A DNA stretch of 64,000 nucleotides, taken from the NCBI RefSeq assembly GCF_001469875.2, contig NZ_LOPW02000001.1, forward strand, positions 62,001-126,000, written 5' to 3'. The notes beneath the pieces are model-generated. The model was given only the letters and a program-made list of their open reading frames with translations, had not been told where the DNA came from and made no database searches. Of this stretch, positions 9,353-50,280 are shown in pieces; within the stretch, counting starts at the first letter, position 1, and the number at the start of each line of letters is the position of its first letter. The DNA comes from Haloferax marisrubri. Lineage in GTDB: Archaea > Halobacteriota > Halobacteria > Halobacteriales > Haloferacaceae. The translations under genes and the position numbers were made by a program.

Positions 9353-9366
9353 TTAGACGCATCTAA
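9353..9366 (+). promoter_or_regulatory. inverted repeat TTAGA-N4-TCTAA, probable DtxR-family operator
   Basis: Perfect 5-bp arms (9353-9357 and 9362-9366), 8 nt before the ATG of the DtxR-type regulator and just downstream of the T-rich CTTTTACTTTA promoter stretch. Operators of DtxR/MntR/IdeR regulators have TTAG...CTAA half-sites, so autorepression in response to metal is the natural reading. This is inferred from position and motif. Confidence 0.6.
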
Positions 9367-9374
9367 TCCGTGGT

Positions 9375-10070
9375 ATGTTGAGCGACGTGATGGAGGACTA
9401 TCTGAAGGCTATCTACACGCTCCAGATGGAGCAGGGACCGCCGGTTTCGACCTCCGACATCGCGGAGTACCTCGGGAAGACGCCGCCGACCGTGACGAGC
9501 ATGGTCGGCAAGCTCGAAGACCGCGGACTGGTCGACCGCGAGAAGTACAAGGGCGTCGAGCTGACCACGGAGGGAGAGACCGTCGCGCTCGAAGTCCTCC
9601 GACACCACCGCCTCTTGGAGGCGTACCTCACGGAGCACCTCGACTACTCGTGGAGCGAGGTCCACGACGAGGCCGACGCGCTCGAACACCACATCAGCGA
9701 GGAGTTCGAAAAGCGGGTCGCGGCCGCCCTCGGCGAACCCGAGGTCGACCCCCACGGCGACCCCATCCCGAGCGCCGACCTCACGCCGCCGGACTCTTCG
9801 GGGCTGTCGGTGCTCTCGGACTGCGAGGTAGGCGACCACCTCGTCGTCGCCCGCGTCAGCGACCGCGACCCCGCGGAGTTGGAGTATCTCTCCGAGGCGG
9901 GCGTCACGCCCGGCACGACCATCGAAGTGACCGATATCGCCCCCTTCGGGATGGTGACGGTCCGCGTCGGCGACGGCGGCCGCGAGCAGAGCCTCCCGGA
10001 GTCGGTGGCCCGAACCATTCGCGTCCGGCCGCCCGACGAGCCGGATAGCGAGGAGGTGTCGCCGGCGTGA
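9375..10070 (+). CDS. sirR: metal-dependent transcriptional regulator, DtxR/MntR family, with FeoA-like domain
   Basis: 231 residues. Residues 1-60 form the winged helix (MLSDVMEDYLKAIYTLQ, DIAEYLGKTPPTVTSMVGKLEDRGLVDREKYKGVELT). The dimerisation and metal-binding domain follows, with the usual His/Glu ligands: LRHHRLLEAYLTEHLDYSWSEVHDEADALEHHISEEFEKR. A C-terminal SH3-like FeoA domain (LSDCEVGDHLVVARVSD...GMVTVRVG) completes the long form of the family. The stop overlaps the start of a Gdt1-type Mn exporter gene, so the pair is one operon, and a TTAGA/TCTAA palindrome sits at the promoter. Together these point to manganese (or iron) homeostasis. The family and target are clear; the metal is inferred. 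Confidence 0.92.
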   Translation: MLSDVMEDYLKAIYTLQMEQGPPVSTSDIAEYLGKTPPTVTSMVGKLEDRGLVDREKYKGVELTTEGETVALEVLRHHRLLEAYLTEHLDYSWSEVHDEADALEHHISEEFEKRVAAALGEPEVDPHGDPIPSADLTPPDSSGLSVLSDCEVGDHLVVARVSDRDPAELEYLSEAGVTPGTTIEVTDIAPFGMVTVRVGDGGREQSLPESVARTIRVRPPDEPDSEEVSPA

Positions 10071-45187: not shown

Positions 45188-45405
45188 CCGCTCTCGCCGA
45201 CAACTAACGAAACTATATTCGGTTACATAGGTGGCGGCGCCGTAACGTCGTTCGGCTGTCCGAAACCCGGACGCGCGTCGCGAACCGGCGTGATTTTTTG
45301 CGGATTTGAAAACAAATTTTCTTTCTACAAAAGGTGGCGGGGGTGAATGCGCAAGCATTATGGGCGATACTCCCCACCCTTCGAGTACGAGGCAACGAAC
45401 CAACG
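45188..45405. other. intergenic region between polB and sufC: terminator and promoter
   Basis: 218 nt with a T6 tract (45294-45299) that probably terminates polB. It includes AT-rich GAAAACAAATTTTC (45308-45321) and an AATGC-GCAA-GCATT repeat (45346-45359) near a TATA-like element for the suf operon. The leader to sufC is around 20-50 nt. No gene is seen. Confidence 0.5.
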
Positions 45406-46311
45406 ATGGCAACTCTCGAGATCAAGAACCTCCACGCACGAGTCGCGGAGGAAGACGGTGAGCAGATTCTGCGAGGTGTCGACCTGGAAGTCAAATCCGG
45501 CGAGATCCACGCACTGATGGGTCCCAACGGGTCCGGCAAGTCTACGACTTCTAAAATCATCGCCGGCCACCCCGCCTACGAAGTAACCGACGGCGAAATC
45601 CTCCTCCACCTGGAGGACGACGACTTCGGCGACCTCGAAATTCCGGACGACGTCCGCACGTGGAACCTTCTGGAACTGGAACCGAACGAGCGCGCCGCGC
45701 TCGGTATCTTCCTCGGCTTCCAGTACCCCGCGGAAATCGAGGGCGTCACCATGACGAACTTCCTCCGCACCGCGCTCAACGCGAAAATCGACGAGCGCGA
45801 GGAGCTCCTCTTCGGCGAGGACGACGAGGAAGAAGAAGAGGAAGCCGGCTACGACACCTCCCCGATGGAGGGTAACGTCGACGACGGCGAAGTCGGCGTC
45901 GCCGAGTTCCAGAAGCTCCTCAAAGAGAAGATGGAGCTTCTCGACATGGACGAGAAGTTCATGCAGCGCTACCTCAACGCCGGCTTCTCCGGCGGCGAGA
46001 AGAAACAAAACGAGGTCCTTCAGGCCGCGATTCTCGAACCGTCGATTGCGGTTCTCGACGAGATCGACTCCGGTCTCGACATCGACCGCCTGCAGGACGT
46101 CTCGAAGGGTATCAACGCGCTGCGCGACGAGCAGGGCACGGGTATCCTCCAGATCACTCACTACCAGCGTATCCTCGAATACGTCGAGCCGGACCACGTT
46201 CACATCATGCTGGACGGCAAGGTCGTCAAGAGCGGCGACGCGTCGCTCGCGTCCGAACTCGAAGACAAAGGCTACGACTGGGTCCGTGAGGAAGTGTACG
46301 AAGCCGCGTAA
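45406..46311 (+). CDS. sufC: Fe-S cluster assembly ATPase SufC
   Basis: 301 residues. ABC ATPase: LMGPNGSGKSTTSK (Walker A), FLGFQYPAEIEG (Q-loop), FSGGEKKQNEVLQ (signature) and IAVLDEIDSGLDID (Walker B), HYQRIL (switch His). An acidic insertion (FGEDDEEEEEEAGYDTSPMEGN, about residues 138-160) makes it longer than bacterial SufC (about 250). ATG at 45406 begins MATLEIKNLHARV, matching the family. First gene of sufCBD; sufB starts 13 nt after its stop. Confidence 0.97.
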   Translation: MATLEIKNLHARVAEEDGEQILRGVDLEVKSGEIHALMGPNGSGKSTTSKIIAGHPAYEVTDGEILLHLEDDDFGDLEIPDDVRTWNLLELEPNERAALGIFLGFQYPAEIEGVTMTNFLRTALNAKIDEREELLFGEDDEEEEEEAGYDTSPMEGNVDDGEVGVAEFQKLLKEKMELLDMDEKFMQRYLNAGFSGGEKKQNEVLQAAILEPSIAVLDEIDSGLDIDRLQDVSKGINALRDEQGTGILQITHYQRILEYVEPDHVHIMLDGKVVKSGDASLASELEDKGYDWVREEVYEAA

Positions 46312-46323
46312 TCCCCCAACATC

Positions 46324-47754
46324 ATGAGTTCCGACCAAGACCACCTCAAAGAGACAGACACGGAAGCTCGCTTCGAGTTCAAGAAGGAGCAGAAGGCCGC
46401 GTTCGTGGCCGAGAAGGGTCTCAACGAAGAGACCATCCGCGTCATCTCGGAGGACAAAGACGAGCCCGAATGGATGCTCGAGCGCCGCCTTCGCGCGCTC
46501 AAGCAGTACCAGAAGATGCCGATGCCGACCGACTGGCCCGGCCAGCCTGACCTCTCCGAGGTCGACGTGGACGAGATCGTCCCGTACATCCGACCCGACG
46601 TGGAAGTCCGCGGCGGCGTCGACGACTGGCGCGACCTGCCGGACGACATCAAGGACACCTTCGACAAACTGGGTATCCCGGAAGCCGAGAAGAACGCCCT
46701 CTCGGGCGTCGGCGCCCAGTACGAGTCCGAAGTCGTCTACCAGAACATGCAGGAGCGCTGGGAGGAGAAAGGCGTCGTCTTCATGAACATGGACCAGGCG
46801 GTCCAGGAGCACGAAGACATCGTCAAGGAGTACTTCATGACGAAGTGCGTCCCCCCGAGCGACAACAAGTTCGCGGCGCTTCACGGCGCGATCTGGTCCG
46901 GCGGCTCGTTCGTCTACGTCCCCGAGGACGTGACGGTCGAGATGCCGGTGCAGGCGTACTTCCGCATGAACTCCGAGGGCATGGGCCAGTTCGAGCACAC
47001 GCTCATCGTCGCGGAGAAGGGCTCCGAAGTCCACTACATCGAGGGCTGTTCGGCCCCGAAGTACTCCGCGTTCAACCTCCACTCCGGCGGCGTCGAAGTG
47101 TTCGTCGGCGAGGACGCCCACGTCCAGTACTCGACCGTCCAGAACTGGTCGAAGAACACCTACAACCTCAACACCAAGCGCGCCATCGTCGAGAAGGGCG
47201 GCCGCATGGAGTGGATTTCGGGCTCGATGGGCTCGAAGGCCACCATGCTCTACCCGGCCTCGATTCTGAAGGGCCGCGGCGCCTCCGACAACCACATCAC
47301 CATCGCCTTCGCGGGCGAGGGTCAGAACATCGACACCGGCGCGAAGGTGTACCACAACGCCCCCGAGACGAAGTCGACCATCGAGTCGAAGTCCATCTCG
47401 AAGGACGGCGGCCGCACGAACTACCGCGGTCTCGTCCACATCGCCAACGGCGCGAAGAACTCCTCGACCGCGGTCGAGTGTGACGCGCTCATGTTCGACA
47501 ACGAGTCCACCTCGGACACGATGCCGTACATGGAGATCAACGAGTCCACGGTGGACGTCGCCCACGAGGCGACCGTCGGCAAGATCGGCGACGAGGACAT
47601 CTTCTACCTCCAGTCGCGCGGTCTCGACGACGACGACGCGAAGCAGATGATCGTCTCCGGGTTCATCGAACCCATCACGGAGGAACTGCCCATCGAGTAC
47701 GCGGTCGAACTCAACCGACTCGTCGAACTCGAGATGGAGGGTAGCCTCGGATAA
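46324..47754 (+). CDS. sufB: Fe-S cluster scaffold SufB
   Basis: 476 residues. Contains the beta-helix core of SufB/SufD: GSFVYVPEDVTVEMPVQAYFRMNSEGMGQFEHTLIVAEKGSEVHYIEGCSAPKY (split from the next segment), EKGGRMEWISGSMGSKATMLYPASILKGRGASDNH, and DALMFDNESTSDTMPYMEINE with the conserved C-terminal acid/His region. The Cys in EGCSAPKY is the conserved scaffold position. With SufC and SufD it builds [4Fe-4S] clusters. Middle gene of sufCBD. Confidence 0.97.
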   Translation: MSSDQDHLKETDTEARFEFKKEQKAAFVAEKGLNEETIRVISEDKDEPEWMLERRLRALKQYQKMPMPTDWPGQPDLSEVDVDEIVPYIRPDVEVRGGVDDWRDLPDDIKDTFDKLGIPEAEKNALSGVGAQYESEVVYQNMQERWEEKGVVFMNMDQAVQEHEDIVKEYFMTKCVPPSDNKFAALHGAIWSGGSFVYVPEDVTVEMPVQAYFRMNSEGMGQFEHTLIVAEKGSEVHYIEGCSAPKYSAFNLHSGGVEVFVGEDAHVQYSTVQNWSKNTYNLNTKRAIVEKGGRMEWISGSMGSKATMLYPASILKGRGASDNHITIAFAGEGQNIDTGAKVYHNAPETKSTIESKSISKDGGRTNYRGLVHIANGAKNSSTAVECDALMFDNESTSDTMPYMEINESTVDVAHEATVGKIGDEDIFYLQSRGLDDDDAKQMIVSGFIEPITEELPIEYAVELNRLVELEMEGSLG

Positions 47755-47757
47755 CCA

Positions 47758-48966
47758 ATGAGTGCGCAACTTCCCGCAAACCTGTCCGCAGAGACGGTAC
47801 GAGAGATTTCGGACGCACGGGACGAGCCGGAGTGGCTCCTCGAGGCCCGCCTCGAAGCCCTCGAAGCACTCGACGAGCTCGAACTGCCGGACGTCATCCA
47901 GACGCCCGGTCGCCGCTGGACGAACCTCGAAGCGCTCGACTTCGAGTCGCTCGTCGACCCGCTGAACCAGGCCGACGAGACGACCCGCGAGTCGCCCGAG
48001 GGCGTCGTCGTCCTCCCCTTCACGGAGGCGCTCTCCGAGTACGGCGACCTCATCGAGGAGCGCTTCGGCTCCGTCGTCGACCCCGAGTCGAACTACCTCA
48101 CCGCCCTCTCGGCGGCGCTGTTCACGACGGGCACGTTCATCTACGTCCCCGAGGGCGTCGACGCCGAGGACGTGAAGATTCGCGCCGAGATGAACTCTCG
48201 GTCGCTGTTCAGCCACACGCTCGTGGTCACCGAGGAGTCCTCGTCGGTCACCATCCTCGAGGCCATCGAGTCCGGTGACAGCGTCGACGACGCGCGGTAC
48301 TTCTCGAACCTCGTCGAAATCGACGCGGGCGAGAACTCGTACGTCCAGTACGGCTCCCTGCAGAACCTCGACGAGGAGACGTACACGTACTCGCTCAAGC
48401 GCGCCGACGCCGACACCTACTCGACCGTCAACTGGATCGAGGGGAACCTCGGCTCGCGGCTCACCCGCAGCGACGTCGAGACCGAACTCAACGGCGAGGC
48501 GTCGGAGACGAAAATCGTCGGCGCGTTCTTCGGTCACGACGACCAGCACCTCGACGTGAACGCCCGCGTCTGGCACAAAGCCGAGAACACGACGGCCGAC
48601 CTCGTGACCCGCGGCGTCCTCGACGACGAGGCACGCTCGGTGTACGAGGGTGTCCAGGACGTCGGCCGCGACGCGTGGAGCACGAACTCCTACCAGCGCG
48701 AGAACACGCTGATGCTCTCGGACCAGTCCGAGGCAGACGCGTCGCCGAAGCTCATCATCAACAACCACGACACCGAGGCGTCGCACGCCGCCTCCGTCGG
48801 GCAGGTCGACGCCGAGGACCTCTTCTACATGGTCTCTCGGTCCATCCCGGAAGAACAGGCCCGTAACATGCTCGTGGAGGGCTTCTTCGTGCCCGTCCTC
48901 GAAGAGATTGCAGTCGACGAGTTCCGCGACGACCTCGAGGAACTCATCGCGGCCCGCCTGCGGTAG
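47758..48966 (+). CDS. sufD: Fe-S cluster assembly protein SufD
   Basis: 402 residues, shorter and more diverged than SufB with the same beta-helix: GTFIYVPEGVDAEDVKIRAEMNSRSLFSHTLVVTEESSSVTILEAIE, and the C-terminal region SEADASPKLIINNHDTEASHAASVGQVDAEDLFYMVSRSIPEEQARNMLVEGFF, including the conserved His in DTEASHAAS. The N-terminus is distinct (DEPEWLLEARLEALEALDELELPD), a short version of the SufB head. Starts 3 nt after sufB, last gene of the operon. Confidence 0.96.
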   Translation: MSAQLPANLSAETVREISDARDEPEWLLEARLEALEALDELELPDVIQTPGRRWTNLEALDFESLVDPLNQADETTRESPEGVVVLPFTEALSEYGDLIEERFGSVVDPESNYLTALSAALFTTGTFIYVPEGVDAEDVKIRAEMNSRSLFSHTLVVTEESSSVTILEAIESGDSVDDARYFSNLVEIDAGENSYVQYGSLQNLDEETYTYSLKRADADTYSTVNWIEGNLGSRLTRSDVETELNGEASETKIVGAFFGHDDQHLDVNARVWHKAENTTADLVTRGVLDDEARSVYEGVQDVGRDAWSTNSYQRENTLMLSDQSEADASPKLIINNHDTEASHAASVGQVDAEDLFYMVSRSIPEEQARNMLVEGFFVPVLEEIAVDEFRDDLEELIAARLR

Positions 48967-49005: not shown

Positions 49006-49111
49006 CGCAGTCTCGCCGACCCGCGAGGGAACCGCTTAAGTCAGTTACTCTCGGAGAAGTGTGTATGTACGCCGCGGGACCGTGTCTTCGAACGTTGAGG
49101 GGGACGAGCCC

Positions 49112-49603
49112 ATGAGCGTCGGGTACCAGGTCAGTTCGGACCACCAACTCGCCCGACTCCTCCAGATCGGTATCGTCCTCGAAGAGGTCGTGGAGGCGCG
49201 CGCCTACCACCACCACGAGGAACTCGACGAAGACGCGCTCGACGAGGAGATTCGAGCCCTGCTTTCGCACGCCGCCGAGGAGTCCGCGGACCACCGCGAA
49301 CGCCTCGAAGCCGTCATCGACAGACTGGAGGTCGACAGCGTCCCCTTCGAGGAGATCGAGGCGCTCGTCGAGGCTCAGTACGGCCAGACGAAACCCGAGG
49401 ACTTCGACGGCGTTCTCTACGATCAACTCTGTAACGAGGAGACCGCCTACAAGTTCTACGACGACGTCATCGAGGCTATCGAGGCGAGCGACGCACAGTT
49501 CTCTATCGACCGCGAAGAACTCGTCGCGACGCTGTCGGCGATTCGCGATGAGGAAGCCGAGGGCGTAGAAGAAGTGACGCGAATCATGGAAGAACGCGAG
49601 TGA
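49112..49603 (+). CDS. ferritin-like (rubrerythrin-type) domain protein
   Basis: 163 residues from ATG at 49112. A helix bundle with candidate metal ligands at spaced positions: VLEEVVEARAYHHHEEL, HAAEESADHRERLEAV (Glu, His), and NEETAYKFYDDVIEAIE and AIRDEEAEGVEEV (Glu). This is the ferritin/rubrerythrin pattern, but whether iron is oxidised or only bound is unclear. The frame extends to GTG 49061, and a TATA (CTTAAG) at 49034 gives a transcript start at about 49061; a GAGGGGGA sequence 12 nt before 49112 supports a led ATG. It lies 4 nt before the regulator gene. Confidence 0.8.
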   Translation: MSVGYQVSSDHQLARLLQIGIVLEEVVEARAYHHHEELDEDALDEEIRALLSHAAEESADHRERLEAVIDRLEVDSVPFEEIEALVEAQYGQTKPEDFDGVLYDQLCNEETAYKFYDDVIEAIEASDAQFSIDREELVATLSAIRDEEAEGVEEVTRIMEERE

Positions 49604-49607
49604 AACG

Positions 49608-50060
49608 ATGAACACGGCAGACCAATACGTCAAGGCGATTTACCTGCTGCAGGAGATGGAGAACGGCCCGGCGGCCACCGGCGCGCTCGCGGACATGATG
49701 GAGGTGAGCCCCGCGAGTGCGAACGAGATGATCGGCAAACTCGAATCCCGCGGCCTCGCCGAACACGAGAAGTACAAGGGCGTCACGCTCACGGACGATG
49801 GCATCGTCCGCGCCCGCGACGCGCTCCAGACCTACTGCATCATCGAGCGCTTCCTCTCGAACGTCCTCGACGTCGAGGAGTTCCGCGCGGAGGCCCGCGA
49901 ACTCGAACCCGTCATCGACGGGATGATCGCGGAGCGACTGGACACCATCATCGACCGTAACTCCGAGTGTCCCGACTGTTTCGACCCCGAGACGGACGCC
50001 TGCGAATATCTCGACGTCTGCGGCGCAGAACCCGAGACGGAGACGGAAGCCGCCGATTAA
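49608..50060 (+). CDS. DtxR-family metal regulator, short form with Cys-rich tail
   Basis: 150 residues. Winged helix MNTADQYVKAIYLLQEMENGPAATGALADMMEVSPASANEMIGKLESRGLAEHEKYKGVTLT is followed by the metal/dimer domain (QTYCIIERFLSNVLDVEEFRAEARELEPVIDGMIAERLD). It lacks the SH3/FeoA domain of the regulator at 9375. Instead its tail contains CPDCFDPETDACEYLDVC, C-x2-C-x7-C-x5-C, which could hold zinc or an Fe-S cluster. It follows the ferritin-like gene by 4 nt and the suf operon, so iron or Fe-S status is the likely signal. Confidence 0.9.
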   Translation: MNTADQYVKAIYLLQEMENGPAATGALADMMEVSPASANEMIGKLESRGLAEHEKYKGVTLTDDGIVRARDALQTYCIIERFLSNVLDVEEFRAEARELEPVIDGMIAERLDTIIDRNSECPDCFDPETDACEYLDVCGAEPETETEAAD

Positions 50061-50125: not shown

Positions 50126-50229
50126 AGTCCCGTGGTGTAGTGGCCAATCATAGCGGCCTTTGGATTGGCACGGTTCAATGCGTGCCGAGAAGACAGCCGC
50201 TGACGGCGGTTCGAATCCGCCCGGGACTA
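50126..50229 (+). tRNA. tRNA-Gln (UUG) with 31-nt intron
   Basis: Acceptor AGTCCCG (50126-50132) pairs with CGGGACT (50222-50228); A at 50229 is the discriminator. The D-arm is GTG...CAT. Anticodon stem GCGGC (50153-50157)/GCCGC (50196-50200) encloses loop CTTTGG, anticodon TTG at 50160-50162, then the A at 50195. The intron (50164-50194, 31 nt) is inserted after position 37, the canonical archaeal site. T-arm is GGCGG-TTCGAAT-CCGCC (50205-50221). An intron in this tRNA is known from Haloferax volcanii. No CCA is encoded. Confidence 0.95.
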
Positions 50230-50280
50230 CTCAAACTTCTCCGACAAACGACCCGAAGAGCGCGTGGTGTAGCCACAATT

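Follow-up and report, generated by a model that had tools for sequence, protein, structure and literature searches.

How might a protein described as the chief iron regulator of a haloarchaeon sense the metal when it has lost most of the residues that its family is known to use for this? The question is posed by a gene at positions 49608..50060 (+ strand) of the 64,000-nucleotide stretch of Haloferax marisrubri DNA analysed here (the window). A sequence-only reading had placed at this position a DtxR-family regulator that lacks an SH3/FeoA domain, ends in a cysteine-rich tail and follows a ferritin-like gene and sufCBD, and had proposed that a DtxR protein sensing Fe-S status through a cluster held by this tail would be new. 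The gene, the missing domain and the neighbourhood are borne out by the analyses below; the tail cluster and the novelty of the regulator have to be recast.

Identity and fold of the regulator

The open reading frame starts with ATG and encodes a protein of 150 amino acids, which matches the helix-turn-helix and dimerization domains of the DtxR family above the Pfam cut-offs (PF01325, 63.1 bits, cut-off 26; PF02742, 33.8 bits, cut-off 27). FeoA is absent among its Pfam matches at E ≤ 0.1, whereas the window's other DtxR gene, at 9375-10070, which served as a control, matches this domain at 65.3 bits (cut-off 23). The Rrf2 model is likewise absent at E ≤ 0.1, and it is DtxR folds that are matched: an AF2 model of the protein (pLDDT 85.7, pTM 0.80, with residues 138-150 below 50) aligned with DR2539 at Z 15.2 and with a DtxR variant at Z 14.3. 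The protein is richer in cysteine than chance would explain, with five residues in 150 (3.3%) compared with 16 in the 2996 residues (0.53%) of eight neighbouring window proteins. Its closest matches, among the best 80 of 296 relatives, are 11 Haloferax loci with 89-99% identity. All 292 sampled genomes of the class match it at E ≤ 1e-15, paralogs included, and by eye the best match reaches E ≤ 1e-40 in 284 of them (the exceptions being G001, G007, G021, G132, G205, G217, G251 and G285).

A regulator of this kind has already been named in Haloferax volcanii, where, in a passage that cites a 2024 paper, three DtxR proteins are listed and HVO_0863 is called TroR (PMC11349517); the title of a cited paper describes TroR as the "primary" regulator of iron homeostasis in this species. 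Primers flanking HVO_0863 are printed in PMC6801745. The forward primer occurs exactly, and once each, upstream of the ferritin-like gene and troR in 3 of 15 genomes of the genus, and lies at position 49049 of the window with 2 mismatches; the reverse primer was found neither in the window at up to 3 mismatches nor as an exact match in the compared loci. At E ≤ 0.01 the source genome contains three matches to the protein, namely troR, the FeoA-bearing gene at 9375-10070 and a third gene on contig 22; Hfx. volcanii has just as many DtxR-family genes. Because of the position of the forward primer and this number of genes, we take the protein, judged by position, to be the ortholog of TroR (HVO_0863). 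The gene itself is therefore not new. The third family member (L002, on contig 22) is Idr-like by elimination and, by eye, is missing both most canonical metal ligands and the cysteine set described below. On iron starvation, the abundance of the TroR protein is reported to be unchanged (PMC11349517), which neither supports nor excludes a role as a sensor.

Loss of the canonical metal ligands

Glu83 and His98 are among the ancillary metal ligands of DtxR. The literature gives M10, C102, E105 and H106 as its primary ligands (PMC4805248) and His79 as an ancillary one (PMC10317159). We compared these positions across 145 distinct proteins, obtained from 182 loci with at least 60% identity; these are related rows, many of which share a genus, and certain species probably occur in both of the sets of loci drawn on. 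In an alignment whose DtxR row was entered by hand and in which canonical paralogs carry FHDEAC.LEH in register, five of the seven ligands (M10, H79, H98, C102 and H106) are absent in 145/145, while E83 and E105 are kept. In their place TroR has invariant Q6 and Y76, a changeable residue at positions 93 (H98; R, Q, K or P), 97 (C102; R, H, G, Q, K or S) and 101 (H106; P, A, S or T), and, at the two retained positions, E80 and E100, again in all 145. Thus Glu105 is the only primary ligand kept throughout, with the proviso that MntR differs from DtxR in its primary ligands, and Glu83 is the only one kept of the ancillary ligands His79, Glu83 and His98. From these alignments, both the primary and the ancillary canonical metal sites appear to have decayed in TroR. 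Four acidic residues, E80, E95, E100 and D104, are invariant in a 36-row alignment and could form a site of oxygen ligands.

Site 1 of the regulators MtsR and SloR is described as H76, E80, C123 and H125 (PMC9253540), and an alignment with ScaR and MtsR, independent of the one with DtxR, places Y76, E80, C121 and D123 of TroR at these positions and pairs E80 and C121 with ScaR. Given this correspondence, the cysteines that TroR has added lie around a known metal site.

Four invariant cysteines

The tail of the window protein reads C-x2-C-x7-C-x5-C, as the sequence-only reading had stated, and comprises C121, C124, C132 and C138. In conservation these cysteines part company: C121, C124 and C132 are each present in 145/145 orthologs, while C138 is kept in place in only 18/145 (20/73 with repeats counted). 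At least one cysteine follows C132 in 84 of the orthologs, so that other cysteine sets are possible in these proteins. In the remaining 61 there is none, leaving just three in the tail, and for this reason the tail alone cannot supply four cysteines; a site made of the tail only is therefore discarded.

A fourth invariant cysteine lies elsewhere. C77, which had no part in the earlier set, sits in a helix of the dimerization domain (within DYCIIER in one ortholog, L113) and is likewise found in 145/145 orthologs, as is E80. On the + strand of the window, the codon of Cys77, at the position of DtxR Arg80 and adjoining Tyr76 (the equivalent of DtxR His79), is at 49836..49838, and that of Glu80, the equivalent of DtxR Glu83 and of the site-1 Glu80 described for MtsR and SloR (PMC9253540), is at 49845..49847. 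The codon of Cys121, which aligns with the cysteine of the ScaR CPH motif and with the Cys123 given for site 1 (PMC9253540), is at 49968..49970. Those of Cys124, a position often occupied by glycine (CPxG) in other archaeal DtxR proteins, of Cys132 and of the poorly kept Cys138 follow at 49977..49979, 50001..50003 and 50019..50021.

The positions of these residues suggest how they might come together. C77 adjoins Y76 and is about one helical turn from E80. In DtxR, Arg80, at the position of C77, presumably lines the ancillary anion pocket together with Ser126 and Asn130, which fall in the region of C121-F125. Since C77 is thus near Y76 and E80 at the Arg80 position, and C121-F125 are at the anion-pocket region, C77, C121, C124 and C132 are likely, as far as alignment can tell, to meet in space.

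Genomic neighbourhood and candidate operators

Upstream of troR on the same strand are sufC (45406..46311, +; TIGR01978, 301.1 bits, cut-off 212.8), sufB (46324..47754, +; PF01458, 282.4 bits, cut-off 27) and sufD (47758..48966, +; PF01458, 244.6 bits, cut-off 27), followed by the ferritin-like gene (49112..49603, +), in the order that had been proposed. The stop codon of the ferritin-like gene is four bases before the troR ATG, and the two genes are probably co-transcribed. Among 100 loci that were picked for having the gene (two sets, of 80 and of 20), all 100 show the start of a ferritin-like match on the same strand no more than 900 bp upstream, and 74 have a sufD match no further away than 3.5 kb upstream. 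One of the 26 loci that lack sufD at this distance offers too short an upstream stretch, and in 10 of the remaining 25 sufD is found 3.5-6 kb upstream.

The ferritin-like assignment is one of fold: of the 50 PDB matches listed, the majority bear the name ferritin, bacterioferritin, Dps or ferritin-like (6n63, 4etr, 4eru and 7tmv are among those with other names). Their query TM-scores go up to 0.79, and none reaches E 0.001. Pfam Rubrerythrin matches 13/27 ferritin-like members weakly at E ≤ 0.01, and the window's own ferritin-like protein has no Pfam match at this threshold. Directly behind troR is a tRNA-Gln(TTG) with a 31-nt intron (50126-50230), which the default tRNA scan did not pick up.

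An AT-rich inverted repeat, GAAAACAAATTTTC, lies at 45308-45321, some 90 nt upstream of the start codon of sufC. It has a single exact match in the genome and is near-perfectly conserved in Haloferax; similar boxes, diverged in sequence, are seen by eye before sufC in other haloarchaea. It is a possible suf operator. A 16-base form has 13 places in the genome with at most 3 mismatches, compared with 4 for the control, and two of these are before nadA. The upstream regions of nadA share a different palindrome, TTGAA..TTCAATA with variants, which was recognised by eye in 11 of 12 loci (L308-L319, of which L310 gave none), and because it differs from the sufC box, a common suf-nadA regulon was dropped. 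No box of the sufC type was seen by eye before the ferritin-like gene and troR, and inverted repeats with arms of at least 6 were found neither before the ferritin-like gene nor before suf, where the arms are 5. The upstream regions searched yielded no TroR operator at suf. A further conserved element before sufC, AATGC-GCAA-GCATT, had been considered as an RNA hairpin and was set aside, as in a wider comparison by eye it looks like a core promoter; Rfam gave no match at the gathering threshold. Elsewhere in the window, an inverted repeat, TTAGA-CGCA-TCTAA, was noted by eye at 9353-9366, directly before the FeoA-type, SirR-like DtxR gene at 9375-10070.

Paralogs and the history of the site

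We sampled 110 further loci from haloarchaea and from other archaea of the phylum, all 110 of which gave a family member; together with P0001 and DtxR they make up 103 distinct rows. The canonical H/H/C/H ligands are present in 31/62 distinct non-haloarchaeal rows; 23 of these 31 have a CPxG linker, and 14 have a cysteine 3-12 residues further on. Within the haloarchaea, six distinct paralogs (L185-L188, L190 and L244, with L243 repeating L185) combine the canonical ligands with C77 and CPxC..C. To judge by their residues, these paralogs look like intermediates, and since the four cysteines coexist in them with the canonical ligands, the set may originally have served a structural role. One of them, L186, has just upstream a ferritin-like gene of 29% identity, which is found in none of the other 19 of the 20 loci compared. 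A further row, L189, has C77 and CPxC or CxxxC and is missing most canonical ligands, and a 12-row group of Idr-like paralogs has neither C77 nor the cysteine tail.

Other cysteine-bearing members were seen in the same sample. A second group of haloarchaeal paralogs (L205, L206, L213, L214 and L216) has C77 and a C-x3-C..C tail, with the canonical ligands mostly lost. Three non-haloarchaeal proteins of the same phylum (L193-L195) are single-domain DtxR proteins that carry CPKC..CC without C77 and have lost most canonical ligands; judging from their motifs, they are a possible parallel case.

A tree of 104 rows was built without column 77 and without the tail; it has few columns and many open forks. 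On this tree C77 needs 2 changes and CxxC..C needs 4, and the branch that holds all C77 rows has an SH-aLRT of 84, which is not secure. C77 and the tail changed jointly in just 2 independent pairs, for which a sign test gives p = 0.5. At least three tail cysteines are found in 13/13 rows with C77 and in 38/90 others (Fisher p = 4e-5, 103 rows), a value on which we do not rely because the rows include the window's own protein and are related to one another.

Discussion

What the analysis contributes, as far as residue conservation goes, is a DtxR-family iron regulator with an apparently decayed canonical site and an invariant set of four cysteines. Our proposal, to which we give an even chance, is that in TroR, an iron regulator of DtxR fold, the canonical sites decayed and four cysteines came to form an iron site in place of the ancillary one. 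C77 from the dimerization helix would join C121, C124 and C132 from the short tail, which would stand where many members of the family carry their SH3/FeoA domain. The cofactor at this site might be an Fe-S cluster, or else Fe(II) bound much as in rubredoxin; its presence would hold the tail against the dimerization domain and set DNA binding, and TroR would in this way read the supply of iron or of Suf-made Fe-S clusters. In this reading the four cysteines would come together in space and bind a metal, the metal would be iron, and iron would be the sensory signal. The 26 loci with no sufD inside 3.5 kb, and the search that found no TroR operator at suf, count against the proposal. Iron is the best guess for the cofactor because of the reported role of TroR in iron homeostasis and the loss of the canonical ligands. 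There is a precedent for such a tie in DtxR and IdeR, for which an account in PMC10317159 has the ancillary metal tying the SH3 domain to the body, with dimerization following the first metal binding.

The narrower form of this proposal has TroR sensing iron through an Fe-S cluster on a DtxR fold, the cluster being held by C77, C121, C124 and C132 where the ancillary site used to be; it is a tentative reading that we would sooner doubt than assert. It retains what was sound in the idea of a DtxR protein sensing Fe-S through its tail, for which the invariance of three tail cysteines and of C77, the loss of five ligands and the ferritin-like and sufD neighbours speak, and gives up the cluster held by the tail alone, against which the orthologs with just three tail cysteines speak. 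A literature search, with the 2024 TroR paper outside it, turned up no DtxR protein described as holding an Fe-S cluster, though such a description may exist.

The main rival is a permanent structural zinc on C77, C121, C124 and C132 that would lock the tail in the place of the SH3 domain, leaving iron to be sensed by E80, E95, E100 and D104 or by partner DtxR proteins. CPxC is a common zinc-knuckle sequence, which counts against an iron reading, and the CPxCF of TroR resembles such a knuckle; the same cysteine set stands beside the canonical ligands in the six distinct paralogs, and the invariant acidic residues remain available. Yet a protein described, at least in a title, as a primary iron regulator keeps only E83 and E105 of the seven ligands, and we regard the zinc explanation as unlikely, if well worth taking seriously. 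The same loss, in 145/145 orthologs whose cysteines are invariant, tells against an ordinary Fe(II)- or Mn(II)-dependent DtxR repressor with a decorative cysteine tail; family, fold and the two retained glutamates agree with such a protein, and still we think it improbable. Little credence is also due to a thiol switch, in which the cysteines would respond to peroxide or disulfide stress with no metal involved. The CPxC pair could form a disulfide, and a thiol-based haloarchaeal regulator, of the TrmB family in Haloferax, is reported in PMC9426492, but four invariant cysteines together with E80 exceed the needs of a simple switch and sit around a known metal site.

With the proposed four-cysteine iron site, the question of how TroR senses iron can be put concretely, to four residues. 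If the proposal is true, the living paralogs that carry both sites would show the conversion of a direct Fe(II) sensor into a cysteine-based one.

Among known systems, DtxR/IdeR and MntR/ScaR/SloR/MtsR share with TroR the fold, the winged helix-turn-helix, the dimerization domain and the positions of the site-1 cysteine and glutamate; they differ in that TroR is without five of the seven DtxR ligands and without SH3/FeoA, and has added C77, C124 and C132. The SH3/FeoA domain is not universal in the family, the chains of B. subtilis MntR being 142 amino acids long. SufR, the Fe-S repressor of suf operons, resembles TroR in its suf neighbourhood and its C-terminal cysteine set; it belongs to another family, however, and one of the four conserved cysteines of TroR is in the body rather than in the tail. 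To TroR of Hfx. volcanii (HVO_0863) the present protein is orthologous by genus, position and flanking primer, and nothing is known to differ between them. There may be a functional likeness to RirA, of the Rrf2 family, which according to a passage in PMC6748827 has three conserved cysteines and uses its cluster as an iron reporter; TroR, which may work in a similar way, is of another family and is known here by its conserved cysteine set. Should the cluster reading prove true, haloarchaea would join RirA and IscR/SufR as another case, of independent origin, in which a cluster reports on iron or cluster supply, with the evolutionary intermediates, which have both sites, still extant.
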